From: Elephas maximus indicus
Lineage: Eukaryota; Chordata; Mammalia; Proboscidea; Elephantidae
DNA length: 64,000 nt
Direction of reading: 5' to 3'
Assembly (NCBI RefSeq): GCF_024166365.1
Contig: NC_064838.1
Coordinates: forward strand, 2,435,501 to 2,499,500
A program made the position numbers and the translations under genes. The notes beneath the pieces were generated by a model that made no database searches, had not been told where the DNA came from, and saw only the letters and a list, made by a program, of their open reading frames with translations. The number at the start of each line of letters is the position of its first letter. The stretch's first letter is position 1. Positions 3,498 to 21,807 of the stretch are shown here, in pieces.

Positions 3498-3735
3498 TGA
3501 TCGGTTGTCATCAGGCTGTTTTGATCCACAGGGTTTTCAGAAGTAAATCATCAGGCCTTTCTGCCAAGTTCCTCTTAGTCTGAAAGCCCCGCTAAAACCT
3601 GTCCAGCATCATAGGAACATGCAAGCCTCCGCTGACGGGTGGATGGTGGCTCTGTATGAGGCACATTGGCTGGGAATTGAACCCAGGTCTCCCACATGGA
3701 AGGCAAAAATTCTACCCCTGAACCACCAGACATAC
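3498..3735 (-). mobile_element. tRNA-Gly-headed SINE
   Basis: An antisense SINE. Its head at the right end, read on the minus strand, resembles tRNA-Gly: 'ggtggttcagggg', then an 11-base box-B-like motif (complement of ggaattgaacc, 3673-3683). The body shows 'cagcatcataggaacatgc' and 'ttctgccaagttcc'. The RTE-like tail is eroded at the left. Confidence 0.65.
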
Positions 3736-3878
3736 TAGCGTCACTTACTAAGTGCTCCAAAATTAGCAGATTCTCTTCTAGACACGTTTCTCATATCTTC
3801 TATAGACATTCCTTCCTCACCAAAAAAGAAGTGTTTTCAACTAAAATCCACTAGAAAAAAAAGGAAAAATTGCCAGAG

Positions 3879-4340
3879 CACACCCACGTGCACCGCTCCG
3901 GAGCCGTTTGTCACACCCACGTGCACCGCTCCGGAGCCGTTTGTCACACCCACGTGCACCGCTCCGGAGCCGTTTGTCACACCCACGTGCACCGCTCCGG
4001 AGCCGTTTGTCACACCCACGTGCACCGCTCCGGAGCCGTTTGTCACACCCACGTGCACCGCTCCGGAGCCGTTTGTCACACCCACGTGCACCGCTCCGGA
4101 GCCGTTTGTCACACCCACGTGCACCGCTCCGGAGCCGTTTGTCACACCCACGTGCACCGCTCCGGAGCCGTTTGTCACACCCACGTGCACCGCTCCGGAG
4201 CCGTTTGTCACACCCACGTGCACCGCTCCGGAGCCGTTTGTCACACCCACGTGCACCGCTCCGGAGCCGTTTGTCACACCCACGTGCACCGCTCCGGAGC
4301 CGTTTGTCACACCCACGTGCACCGCTCCGGAGCCGTTTGT
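3879..4340. repeat. 33-bp minisatellite, 14 identical units
   Basis: Fourteen head-to-tail copies of a 33-bp unit, with no mismatch seen over 462 bp. Each unit contains the E-box palindrome CACGTG and the 10-bp palindrome GCTCCGGAGC, and has four CpGs, so about 56 CpGs in all, against a CpG-poor background. After unit 14 a 10-base remnant 'cacagtttgt' has the first 4 and last 6 bases of a unit, as if a fifteenth unit had lost its middle. Because 33 is divisible by three, long 11-residue-repeat frames run through it on both strands; these are not evidence of a gene. Perfect identity implies recent expansion or homogenisation, or an assembly artefact. Confidence 0.97.
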
Positions 4341-4373
4341 CACAGTTTGTTTAACGTGAGTAACATTAACGCG

Positions 4374-4390
4374 TCGAAACAGAAACTGTT
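4374..4390 (+). promoter_or_regulatory. ISRE-like motif beside the minisatellite
   Basis: The sequence GAAACAGAAACT (4376-4387) fits the GAAANNGAAA pattern bound by interferon regulatory factors. It overlaps an inverted repeat cagaaa/tttctg. The surrounding 4350-4430 holds more CpGs (acgcgtcg and others) than the general background. A chance match is quite possible. Confidence 0.2.
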
Positions 4391-6589
4391 TCTGTGTTAT
4401 CAGAATCAAATACGGAAAGGAGACGGGGTTCTCAGTTTGGGAAAATTGCAGAAATTGTTGGTAATCGTTTTCCTCATTAGTCGCCACAGACGGCACGTGA
4501 CAAGGGGAAACACGCCTGGTTCTCAAGGCGCCTGACTCGGTGTCCACTGCCCCAGGTCACCCCCTGCCAGTGTATCGTTTATCTCAGAGAAGCTTCCTGT
4601 ATTGCTTAATCTCAGCTTTCAATACTGTCCACATCATCCACACGCCTGACTCTTTGTAAGTGGCTTTTAAAATTCAAAGAACATCTGAAAAATAAAACAA
4701 AAAACAAAGAACATCTGACAGATGTTAGATACACATACACACACCTCTAACAGCACTATATTTTCATTGACTACTAATATTTTAGCCATCTTATTGCATG
4801 ATTTCTTATGGCAGCTATAATACATTGCTCTTCATATTAAATTTAAAATTTTCAGATTGTTAATCTGTGTCCCTAAAAGTGGCAAAAAAAAAAAAAAAGT
4901 ATGTATTTCAGAGCAGTTGCCATTTCGTTCAAGGGGTCTTATTTCTTTCAATCCCATTGTTACTTTCTTGCCAAAGACTATAATTTACTTTTTACCGTTT
5001 CATTTAAGGATCTGACACTTGACACATTCCCTAATTAATTTGCATTCTGTCTAAAGGTAACCTGTGGTAAATACAACCTTTACTAAGGAGATCATCAGGT
5101 CACTGCTGGCAAAGCTATACAGCAGCCAAAGGTGAGCTAGATAAAAAAATATATATATATGTATTTTTTTTTTTTTTTTTCAGAGCTAGATACAGCCAAG
5201 GAAATTCACTTCCACCAACCGATTGGTGCTGGGACCCGTCCTGCTTTTCTGATCTGATGATAGATACTGCATATAAAAATATATAAACTACAGAGATGGT
5301 ATATAAAATACAAGAATTCCTCAGGCAGCCTCTTAATTTGAAATGAAATTGGTTGCCTAGCTAGACATGAAATGTCTCAAAGACAGGTCAGAGTTTCTTT
5401 AGCTGGCAAAGCTGGCTCTATTTTCACGTCCTCACACATCCACCCTCTCCTCAGAGCTAAGTACCTGTTAATGCAGCTAAGTGTTCAATGAAGCCAGATT
5501 TAAGCGCACACAAAAGGGATGGAAAAATGAATTTCTTTCTAGACTATGCATATTTTTCTACTTCCTAAATCCGGATGCACGGAGAAACCAAACCTGTCAG
5601 GGCCTCTGTCATATCTAAGCCACAGAGATAACACAGGTGCGAGTCTGGAGAGGCTGAGCTAGGAACGTTCAAGGTTGGAGGTCTTCTCTCTCATGAATGA
5701 AGCCGTTTTTACACAGAAGGGTGTTTGAAGTCCCACTGTTACTATCACACATTGCTACCTTCAATTCAAACGAGAAAACTAAGTATAAATCTTAAGTTAA
5801 CAAAAGAGTCATATAAATCGATTGGCCTACATCAAAACTGAAACCAACCTACACGAGGATGGTTTTCCTAGATCTGCTAGTGACAACGGTGGGTTTTCTT
5901 GAGTCTTGAAGTTGGTGGTGTTTGGGGTTTGGAATTTTGTCTGGGGGAAGAGACTGAGGCAGGGATGTTAGGAAGCGAAGGGCGCCACACGAAGAGCCAT
6001 TGATGACTTTTCTCACAGATACTATTAGGGCGGGGATTTTTTTGGTTCTGACTTTTTTTCCCCCCTTTATTTCATTTCTTCCATGAGCTCATTTTTTTTT
6101 TTTTTTTACCTTGGTTTTCATAACCATTTGAAAAGAAGGAAAGGACAGTTTGGGGACACTATCACACACTTTAGTGTTACATTAAGTGTCCGAAGTGAGC
6201 AACGGCAACGCCATAAGCTTAGGTGAGAAGGAAAAGCAAAGACACAGGGGATAATGGAAACTTCAGACCTCTCCACATCAGCGTTGTCTCTTGGTCGGTT
6301 AAACTGCACCTTGGAGAAATTACTAACCCTAAAACCAGTGTTAATGAGACAATCGCATGTTCCCAGGAAGAGCTTCAAACACAATTGGAAGACAGGTTTT
6401 GACAAGTACAAAGGTGACAGGCCTGCCTGGGCTCTGGGGCAGCGAGGAGGCGAGGCGGAGCGTTGAGGGAGCCCTGCTGTGGGCTTCGGTCAGGGGGTCA
6501 GGGCGCTGCACCTCCTTCCCGTTACCACGCGTTCAAGGCCGGTGCCGGGGTCAGAGGGCTAGGGGATTATTTTAGCTAAAAAGTGCTGG
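4391..6589. other. Low-copy DNA without recognised gene
   Basis: No exon, RNA gene or lineage-specific SINE is recognised. It holds short A or T runs (4884-4898, 5163-5180, 6093-6107) and a TSD-flanked AT-rich insert at 5134-5192. The AT-rich block at about 5320-5400 has the look of old single-copy sequence. The small open frames at 6118-6575 have no recognisable domain. Confidence 0.5.
5134..5192. repeat. AT-rich insert flanked by 10-bp direct repeats
   Basis: The 10-mer gagctagata occurs at 5134-5143 and 5183-5192 and brackets 39 bases of A-run, (AT)n and T-run. The flanks look like a target-site duplication around a minimal tail-only retroinsertion, or the result of repair slippage. Confidence 0.5.
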
Positions 6590-6830
6590 AAATATTAACA
6601 ATAGGTTTTCCGGGAAAACACAAATTACCACTTTTCAGACGCTATTTGAGTAAAAGATGTGGAAATTTTTGTGGTGGGTAAGTGTAGGAAAAAAACTGAT
6701 CCTGAACTTTCGGTTGAACCTGATTTTATCATTGAACATTGTGTTCTTGTGAACCCTTTGATGTGTTATTTATAAGGTTATTAGACTAGATGGTAAATTT
6801 TGAACAAGGAAAACTCCCCAATCTGCAGTA
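6590..6830. other. Candidate conserved non-coding block
   Basis: A repeat-free, AT-rich stretch of about 240 bp with long non-simple words such as 'aggttttccgggaaaac' (ETS- or STAT-like palindrome TTTTCCGGGAAAA) and 'gtgttatttataaggtta'. Conservation is inferred from texture only. Confidence 0.25.
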
Positions 6831-6960
6831 AAACTATTTTATTCTACCAAGGGGACAATGTCTGTAATGTGCTTGGCTCCCCTCCCCCTTCAACTCAATT
6901 TGAGCCTTGATTAGCTTGAACATAATTAAAGTAAGACTGACTAATTTACTCCGTGCGTTC

Positions 6961-6964
<4 letters not shown>

Positions 6965-7004
<40 letters not shown>
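6965..7004. repeat. (GT)20 microsatellite
   Basis: An uninterrupted GT dinucleotide run of about 40 bp, preceded by gtgcgttcgtgc. It is likely polymorphic and gives rise to Cys-Val or Thr-His repeat frames that are not genes. Confidence 0.97.
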
Positions 7005-7005
<1 letters not shown>

Positions 7006-7155
7006 AGGGTGGGGGTGGAGATGGGAGTTCCCTTCGCACCTTTCTGTTTTCTTTTATGGAGGTGCCCTCCTGTGGCCACTGAAAATATTGCATCATAAAA
7101 TACCCCTGGGGCCCACGCTAAGTCCCATATACTATTTATAGTGCTAGTTTTCATC

Positions 7156-7355
7156 GTGTAATGCGGTGTATTAAGCGCTGGACAGCTAACCGAAAAGTCG
7201 GCGGTTCGAACCCATCGTTCCGTGGGATAAAGAGGTGGCAGCCTGCTTCAGTAAAGATTACAGCCTTGGAAACCCTATAGGGCAGCTCTCTGTTCCGTAG
7301 GGTCGCTATGAGTCAGAATCGACTTGACAGCAGCAGGTTTGGTTTTAGTTTTAAT
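7156..7355 (+). mobile_element. AfroSINE, long variant
   Basis: The tRNA-like head has box B 'ggttcgaacc' at 7202-7211, then a variant middle ('cagcctgcttcagtaaag', 'acagccttggaaaccc') and the common tail 'tcgctatgagtcagaatcga' ending in 'ggtttggtttta'. The insert of about 50 bp before 'ccttggaaaccc' separates this variant from the short type at 13.9 kb. Confidence 0.9.
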
Positions 7356-7544
7356 ATGGTGCACATGAAGCATTTACATTTTCACTTAAATAAATTAAAA
7401 GTCCCACTAAGCTACACAGGTGTAATTTTTTTCAAACACTATCTTTTGCGTTTTAAAAGCTGGGATGTTTAAATATTAAGCAGAGAAACCATATTCTAAC
7501 CCAGATTTCTAAGAGTAAAGAGTGTCTCTTCATGGCCAGTTGTT

Positions 7545-17894: not shown

Positions 17895-18385
17895 GTGTTT
17901 CAGCTTCCTAGGACTGCTGTGACAAAGTGCCACTGCGTGGGCGGCTTCAAACAACAGAAATGTATTCTCTCACAGTTCTGGAGGTTAGATGTCCAAAATC
18001 AAGGTGTCGGCAGGTCCATGCTTTCTGTGAAGGCTCTCAGGGAGAATCCTTCTTTGCCTCTTCCAGCTTCTGGTGGTTATCAGCAATCCTTGGCTTGTAG
18101 CTGCACCACTCCTGTCTCTGCCTTTGTCTTCACATGGCCGTCTTCCCTCCGTGGGTGTCTGTGAGCCTTCACGTGGCCGTCTTCCCTCTGTGGGTGTCTC
18201 TGCATCTTCACGTGGTGGTCTTATAAGGACACCAGTCACTGGACTTAGGGCCCACCCTAATCCAACGTGATCTCATCCTAACTAAGTACACCTACAAAGA
18301 CCCTATTTCCAAATAAGGTCACATTCTTGAGTTCCAAGTGGGCATGAATTTTGGGGGAACAGTATTCAACTCAGTAATTCACCTC
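17895..18385 (-). mobile_element. MLT1-like MaLR LTR with internal duplication
   Basis: Antisense LTR. Plus-strand order is 'gcttcctaggactgctgtga', 'cacagttctggaggttagat', 'cttctggtggttatcagc', 'gacaccagtcactggactta', 'ccctatttccaaataaggtc' and 'attttgggggaacag'. A 39-bp segment near 18128-18222 is repeated 2.4 times. Confidence 0.85.
18128..18222. repeat. 39-bp tandem repeat, about 2.4 copies
   Basis: Units at 18128-18166 and 18167-18205, with a third partial unit to about 18222. Each starts cttcac(a/g)tgg. Divergence is low, so it arose within the LTR by local duplication. Confidence 0.85.
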
Positions 18386-20880: not shown

Positions 20881-21807
20881 CAGATGACAGCCTGCAGCTG
20901 CAGTCCAGGCCTGGGGACACCACGCCCTCTTGGGCTCCCAGGACACCCAGTCATGGCCTCCTGAGAGTCCTGCGTGCCAGCCTCCATGGCAGCCTTCCCA
21001 ACTGCACCCACCGGCGGCTGCCAGGGTGCACTCAGGCAGCGAGGTGGCCCGGTGCATTGCCGAGCCCCGCCTGCTGCAGCGCCGGCCAGCCAGCGCACAG
21101 TGAGTCCCGCTCAGCTTGCTGACCTGCCTCAACCCAGGCCGTGGCACTGTCCCAGGGTGCCAGCCGTTCGACGTGGCTTTCCCCACTTCCACCTCCGCAC
21201 GAGTGCGGGCTGGAGGAAGGAGGGCTCCGCTTTGCACTGCTCACTGCGACTGCTGCCTTTGTAAAAAGTGCCAGAAAAGGGCAGGACAGACTCAGACACC
21301 TTCTTCATTTCAGTAACTGAAACGGCTCCCAAACCTCCACTTGCTTCTCTCTCCCCTTCAAGCTCATCTTCCTCCCAGGTGACCCCAGAGGGTGAATGAG
21401 CTAACCTGTGTGTTGTCCTGCCCTCAGAGCCATTTTTGCCCTACCCCCCCCCGCCCCCACCCCACCCCTTTGCTCCCAATCCAGGCTCCCTGCTCAACTG
21501 GCTTCCAGCTGGGTTTAACCAATGGGAGGCGCTCCCCTCTCCACCCACCTCACTACCACACCTCCAGGCCATGTCTCTGGTCTCCAGGGCAGCTCCACCA
21601 GTAAGACCATCATCATCCCAGCTTTTCCTGAAGGATGCTGACCCCCAGGTTCTGGAACACCACCTCTTCCCTTTGTCCCTCTGCCTAGGGCTGGTGTGGA
21701 TTCCCTGCTGTTAGTGATCTCTAGGGTGCCTCACCTGCTCTCCTGGACTTCCCTGCTCTTCCACCCCTACAAATTCGGTGCCTTGCATAAAGTCTCCCTG
21801 AGCTGCT
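20881..21807. other. GC-rich low-copy DNA
   Basis: The most GC-rich low-copy part of the window, with several CpGs at 21010-21240. Many overlapping open frames (longest 145 codons, minus 20800-21237) follow from the high GC. No domain, promoter or exon structure is recognised. Confidence 0.45.
21444..21468 (-). other. Potential G-quadruplex (minus strand)
   Basis: C runs of 9, 5, 4 and 4 separated by single bases give four G tracts on the minus strand, a canonical quadruplex pattern. Confidence 0.6.

Follow-up and report, generated by a model that had tools for sequence, protein, structure and literature searches.

A perfect 14-copy, 33-bp minisatellite, probably young, beside a CpG-retaining flank near an elephant chromosome end

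In a 64,000-nt stretch of elephant DNA (C28:2435501-2499500 of a 64-contig assembly totalling 3.40 Gb; hereafter, the window), we have characterized a tandem array of 466 bp in all, at positions 3879-4344, in which 14 identical 33-bp units, CACACCCACGTGCACCGCTCCGGAGCCGTTTGT, are followed by a CACA run-on to 4344. We are confident, short of certainty, that this array is a young, GC-rich minisatellite of the subtelomeric kind, probably variable in copy number, that grew from one unit. Its composition, period and position are as in a human subtelomeric class, which makes a young minisatellite the best reading. The array is a real minisatellite, ordinary in kind, and the locus serves as a worked example of how a striking array can fit a known class. 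The sole unusual point about the locus is a one-sided CpG-retaining islet to the right of the array.

Tandem Repeats Finder (TRF), which the first-pass annotation of this DNA had proposed as a check, returned a period of 33, 14.1 copies, 100% matches, 0 indels and a score of 932, and the same structure was observed in a unit walk. That annotation had described fourteen perfect 33-bp units at 3879-4340, with about 56 CpGs and one CACGTG and one palindrome in every 33 bp. These claims are borne out by our counts of 56 CpGs, 14 CACGTG E-boxes (the first at 3885-3890, with a spacing of 33 bp) and 14 copies of the perfect palindrome GCTCCGGAGC (the first at 3895-3904), none of these features being assigned to a strand. 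The GC content of the array is 66.5% and its CpG observed/expected ratio (o/e) is 1.18. Minisatellites have been described as units of between seven and several hundred bp that follow one another head to tail (PMC8096271), a definition within which 14.1 copies of 33 bp at 100% identity clearly fall.

Both edges of the array are abrupt. The unit was matched at 5 of 33 positions in the 33 bases to the left and at 7 of 33 in those to the right, and six local alignments, which covered the left and right flanks on both strands, detected no degenerate units there (the alignment scores were reached by 156-300 of 300 shuffles). No 12-mer of the unit occurred elsewhere in the window on either strand, and a blastn search of the window with two units returned the array itself only, in agreement with the earlier view that the array derives from no repeat family seen in the window. 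Tandem identity on this scale is not chance, but the motifs within it count as one event, repeated along with the unit, and not as 14 separate observations. Among 20,000 shuffles of the unit, CACGTG was present in 1.3%, a palindrome of at least 10 bp in 3.8% and some 6-bp palindrome in 47%. Purines and pyrimidines alternate in the array over at most 9 bp; this was taken as unremarkable, and Z-DNA formation was rejected as a candidate property.

Contig C28 is 84.1 Mb in length and begins with CCCTAA repeats, which occupy its first 10 kb (1662 copies), which places the array start, C28:2,439,379, at 2.44 Mb from a chromosome end that is capped by telomere repeats. Human VNTRs with GC over 60% and a period over 15 bp are reported to be 21-fold enriched within 5 Mb of chromosome ends (PMC7608644), and the elephant array falls within all three limits, with its GC of 66.5%, its period of 33 and its location within 5 Mb of a chromosome end. 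In GC, period and chromosome-end distance it is therefore like the human GC-rich subtelomeric VNTRs described by Linthorst et al. (2020; PMC7608644), from which it differs in species and in that all of its units are identical; the likeness is one of these properties and not of compared sequences. As about one in five human minisatellites are stated to be variable in copy number (PMC8096271), variability of the present array, seen here in one assembly, is plausible by analogy of class and position, and the earlier mention of a hypervariable locus can be retained as a candidate property on the same grounds. The 84 Mb contig with a telomere repeat suggests a long-read assembly that would easily span 466 bp, and the worry that the array is an assembly artefact is reduced, not removed.

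With regard to origin, we propose that the array began with the tandem duplication of one 33-bp stretch bordering a small CpG-retaining islet, and that it then grew via slippage or via recombination-repair turnover (unequal exchange or synthesis-dependent strand annealing, SDSA), perhaps aided by predicted hairpins between the palindromes of neighbouring units. Either the growth would be so recent or the turnover so fast that the units have stayed identical, and the E-box and CpGs would be passengers of the founding unit, itself partly like a CA/TG-rich tract. We infer both this growth mechanism and a present or recent unmethylated state of the flank in the germ line. In humans, most minisatellites are reported to lie at recombinationally active chromosome ends, some of these active ends coinciding with hotspots, and hairpins have been proposed in the case of MSY1, and SDSA in that of the GC-rich autosomal minisatellites (PMC2599865).

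The array contains inverted repeats with 16-nt arms that are 88% complementary, and copies of GCTCCGGAGC in neighbouring units are predicted from folding to form hairpins in which the arms reach 16 nt. When folding as single-stranded DNA was compared with that of dinucleotide shuffles, which break the tandem structure and are for this reason a lenient control, segments of 2-3 units gave z values of -2.5 to -3.3 and one unit gave -0.6 and -1.0. Two or three units would fold better than one because the palindromes of adjacent units pair as the 16-nt arms. The zero differences between units yield 95% upper bounds on age of about 4 My if the array is methylated and 13 My if it is not, as a rough guide. 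These bounds assume a rate of 1.2e-8 per site per generation, a ten-fold higher rate at CpGs and 25 years per generation.

The observations against the minisatellite reading include the following two: the array is locally exceptional, being the only perfect one with at least 5 copies and having an unusual E-box count, and the CpG retention of its flank is not predicted from array turnover alone. The first of these comes from a survey of 274 kb, comprising the window and 21 fetched stretches (22 in all; L006 and L007, from contig ends, were left out, as were match loci L001-L003 and L022), in which we counted 29 minisatellites with periods of 10-100 and TRF scores of at least 50. Only the 3879-4344 array, 1 of the 29, is 100% perfect with at least 5 copies. 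Two of the 29 hold at least two CACGTG, both located in the window; besides the array, a minisatellite at 18127-18222 (39 bp x 2.5, 84%) has two. Two other minisatellites with at least 5 copies are nearly as uniform: one, at L024:1-1520 (C2, 2.0 Mb), has 17.5 copies of an 87-bp unit at 99%, and the other has 6.0 copies at 98%. A 32-bp array at L009:8110-8263, for which the TRF consensus had suggested a third CACGTG array, was rejected, its actual copies being devoid of CACGTG.

When the array was used as a query against the assembly, one further place was found, C20:86561127-86561262, at 70% identity. The C20 array (L003:1469-1650, at ~86.56 Mb and ~9.9 Mb from the contig end) consists of 29-31 bp units with 5 CACGTG, and has in common with the 33-bp unit an exact 16-mer, GTGCACGTGGGTGTGA, which is TG-rich, includes CACGTG and is present there in 4 copies. 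The remainder of the C20 unit looks unrelated to the 33-bp unit. By this comparison, the shared core would be a recurrence of the CACGTG motif context, and the TG-rich surroundings common to both arrays suggest that the E-box is readily born of CA/TG-like tracts; alternatively, the core could reflect a selected or shared motif.

The second observation concerns the two flanks, which are clearly different from each other. The left flank (3739-3878) is AT-rich and ordinary in CpG content, with 2 CpGs in 140 bp, and the CpG-rich tract begins at the array edge. In contrast, the non-repeated right flank (4345-4560; no strand assigned) contains 13 CpGs at a GC of 48% and has an o/e of 1.07, the ratio for the window outside the array being 0.255. 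Its o/e was reached by 0 of 6290 other scanning windows in the 64 kb and its CpG count by 16 of 6290; over the 274 kb, 54 of 26849 such windows matched it in both measures, and all 54 are located either in L013, at its CpG island, or in an 850-bp satellite in L026. The latter satellite (11.8 copies, 98%) fills the 10 kb of that stretch (C6:2000001-2010000), 2 Mb from the contig start, and has CpG-island-like stretches about every 850 bp. Takai-Jones CpG islands are defined by a length of at least 500 bp, GC of at least 55% and o/e of at least 0.65. The array and right flank taken together (3879-4560) have values of 682 bp, 60.6% and 1.14, respectively, and a scan by the same thresholds placed the only such island in the window at 3631-4630.

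Homogenization of the array alone cannot account for the CpGs, since the right flank is non-repeated and yet CpG-rich. This bears on the first-pass annotation, in which the CpGs were viewed as retained in a CpG-poor region and the array was considered very young, being homogenized, or unmethylated. The former description has to be amended, as the right flank clearly departs from the low o/e of the window outside the array; a young or homogenized array is upheld here, but the argument from CpGs had missed the non-repeated right flank. As the array is perfect and its flank is not repeated, CpG retention can be read at this locus free of noise from array turnover. The right flank is either unmethylated in the germ line or recent DNA.

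A recent insertion would supply DNA of the latter type: the array and right flank would have been carried in by one mobile element that bears a VNTR, in the manner of SVA, and would for that reason be high in CpG. The sharp left boundary of the CpG-rich tract is in favour of such an event, which we nevertheless consider very unlikely. A search of the 3.4 Gb assembly with 4345-4680, by a procedure that skips very common words, gave a single match, which was the flank itself, and the array query yielded only itself and the C20 array of a different unit; the dispersed genome copies that characterize an SVA-type element were thus not seen in either search. Also, target-site duplication was not above chance in three tests, the score being reached by 184, 316 and 199 of 500 shuffles, respectively, in tests that a short duplication could escape. 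By these searches, a multi-copy element appears unlikely as the source of the right flank, and, since the flank matches only itself and had no target-site duplication above chance, germline hypomethylation would be a better inference than a young element. An origin in viral, bacterial or plasmid DNA was rejected: a 20-base core had 0 matches in viral contigs, and the array had no plasmid match. The core occurred once in bacterial and archaeal genomes, in a Kofleriaceae MAG, and this 1 match was taken as chance.

If germline methylation is truly lacking from the right flank, the locus would be well suited to the question of whether a small germline-open site seeds and drives one-sided minisatellite growth. 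A stronger version, which we put forward as a speculation of low probability, is that a germline-active element has the array as its polar, growing end: a short non-repeated islet at ~4345-4560, which bound factors or recombination-hotspot activity keep unmethylated in the germ line, would drive tandem amplification at its edge. The result would be an orphan CpG island in which the dose of E-boxes, as read by CpG-sensitive bHLH factors, differs from one individual to the next.

A regulatory VNTR would place the emphasis elsewhere: the array and flank would be an orphan CpG island promoter or enhancer, in which E-box number sets output through bHLH proteins of the USF/MYC/TFE type and CpG methylation blocks it. 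We regard this as improbable for the present locus, although a regulatory role is possible in kind by analogy with known systems. The location in the window's only Takai-Jones island is in its favour, as are two sites within the flank itself: an isolated CACGTG at 4494-4499 (no strand; context GGCACGTGAC) and, on the + strand at 4376-4387, an ISRE-like site, GAAACAGAAACT, both identified by sequence match. We take GAAACAGAAACT to resemble the interferon-response element, and GAAANNGAAACT, at 4376-4387, is the only one in the window on either strand. However, limited scans of the window found no clear exon and no Pfam match, and a CACGTG in each unit is only mildly surprising, given its presence in 1.3% of shuffles and the many motifs possible. 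Also, the E-boxes lack a common helix face. At 10.5 bp/turn, 33 bp corresponds to 3.14 turns, which places successive E-boxes 51 degrees apart and so distributes the 14 of them evenly round the helix; their mean resultant length was 0.0 at this pitch and 0.08, 0.13 and 0.20 at 10.2, 10.4 and 10.6 bp/turn, respectively. A phased binding platform, with sites on one helix face, is not described by values of 0.0-0.20, and the earlier claim of 14 sites near the same helix face fails.

Several known minisatellites can be compared with the array in this connection. Trepicchio and Krontiris reportedly described, in 1993, an IGH minisatellite and USF; the array is like that minisatellite in being tied to bHLH sites, a likeness of subject and not of compared sequence. 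The TRIB3 promoter is described as having a 33-bp VNTR in which every unit holds an ATF4 site and from which reporter output rises between 1 and 5 copies (PMC7425993). The array is similar to it in having identical 33-bp units with one potential site each (14 CACGTG in 14 units, by sequence match), whereas the TRIB3 VNTR is reported at 1-5 copies, within a promoter, with a C/EBP-ATF site in a conserved segment and a demonstrated effect on expression (PMC7425993). Minisatellites of hTERT are reported in introns 2, 6 and 12 (PMC5703907). Many repeats of one of them, hTERT-VNTR2-1st, are described as carrying the canonical CACGTG MYC site (PMC2915984), and the array is like it in motif, not in unit; hTERT-VNTR2-1st belongs to the TERT gene, whereas no gene was found near the array by the limited scans. 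More generally, VNTRs are stated to be able to carry NF-kappaB and myc/HLH sites, and common human VNTRs to be enriched in CpG islands and in factor-binding clusters (PMC8096271).

Association of VNTRs with CpG islands has also been reported in the setting of methylation that is retained, not avoided. Among human CpG islands hypermethylated in both gametes, those that remained more than 70% methylated in blastocysts were 118 of 499 with VNTRs and 31 of 2,222 without, and VNTRs were present in 11 of 44 maternal germline DMRs (PMC4263407). The array, as a CpG-rich tandem array in a CpG island, is like the VNTR-containing islands described there as resisting embryonic demethylation (PMC4263407), a likeness drawn from sequence alone. 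An imprint-like island of this type, with one parental allele methylated and the repeat number protecting the mark after fertilization, nonetheless has a negligible probability in our estimation. Germline methylation would erode the CpGs of the non-repeated flank, unless it were restricted to the oocyte or recent, and exon and limited Pfam scans revealed no nearby gene in the window.

The remaining function that we considered was a coding one, in which the array would be an exon for 11-residue repeats of TPTCTAPEPFV or, on the other strand, TNGSGAVHVGV. Five of the 6 frames are open through the array, and one + frame matches Pfam PF23698, 'ORF29-like', at 31 bits against a cut-off of 27 (E 2.3e-7) and is also weakly matched by EGF_TEN (E 0.0006, below cut-off). 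A second + frame reaches 23.7 bits with Mucin-like, short of the cut-off of 28.7. PF23698 was obtained from 0 of 6 permuted repeats of the first frame, one of which gave Mucin-like at 16 bits. The exon score of the array, 23.8, is the highest in the window, and a donor-like AACGTGAGTAAC is located just after it. However, this score accumulates from a small contribution of each unit, repeated 14 times; five or more of the 6 frames were open in 54% of shuffled units; and the PF23698 match is scattered over 7 stretches of repetitive sequence. Moreover, a comparison of the PF23698 frame with 5672 candidates yielded no homologue at E 0.01, in a collection that may lack elephant proteins; the minus-strand frame had no Pfam match and, in PDB, only an ankyrin chain at E 0.08; and there were no clear flanking exons. 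We attribute the PF23698 match to repetition, though it is not explained away, and view a coding repeat as extremely unlikely.

Outside the array, Pfam at E 0.001 had 0 matches in the 70 best-scoring of 899 open segments, and the exon scan found no clear exon in the window, a scan that would overlook non-coding genes as well as first and short exons. The next scores after that of the array were 19.6 (20942-21099) and 16.5. The scan was applied to seven stretches, including as control L013, two exons of which, presumably MHC class I-like, scored 44.3 and 25.6; a minus-strand segment of L013 that may be spurious scored 23.4. Exon scores in this range are not decisive, and the absence of a clear exon is all that we claim. 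With no Pfam match and no clear exon in these limited scans, no promoter or exon role is indicated for the array, and the young minisatellite remains our preferred reading.

Other features of the window were also noted. The segment 5501-7160 had no match to the interspersed repeats of the window except for a simple GT repeat, and CpG o/e is raised to 0.57 at 5501-7500, as compared with 0.255 for the window without the array; the 5501-7160 segment is possibly germline-hypomethylated or conserved. At 4675-4718, a 14-base direct repeat, CAAAGAACATCTGA, bounds a short A-rich stretch and resembles a poly-A-only retroposition event. LINE pieces in the window are presumably of the RTE type and, like the SINE described next, agree with an elephant host. 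A SINE-like repeat at 3534-3733 on the minus strand, which we take to be AfroSINE-like, is tRNA-Gly-like and has relatives elsewhere in the window; ARAGORN and Rfam locate the tRNA-Gly(TCC)-like sequence within it at 3660-3733, also on the minus strand.
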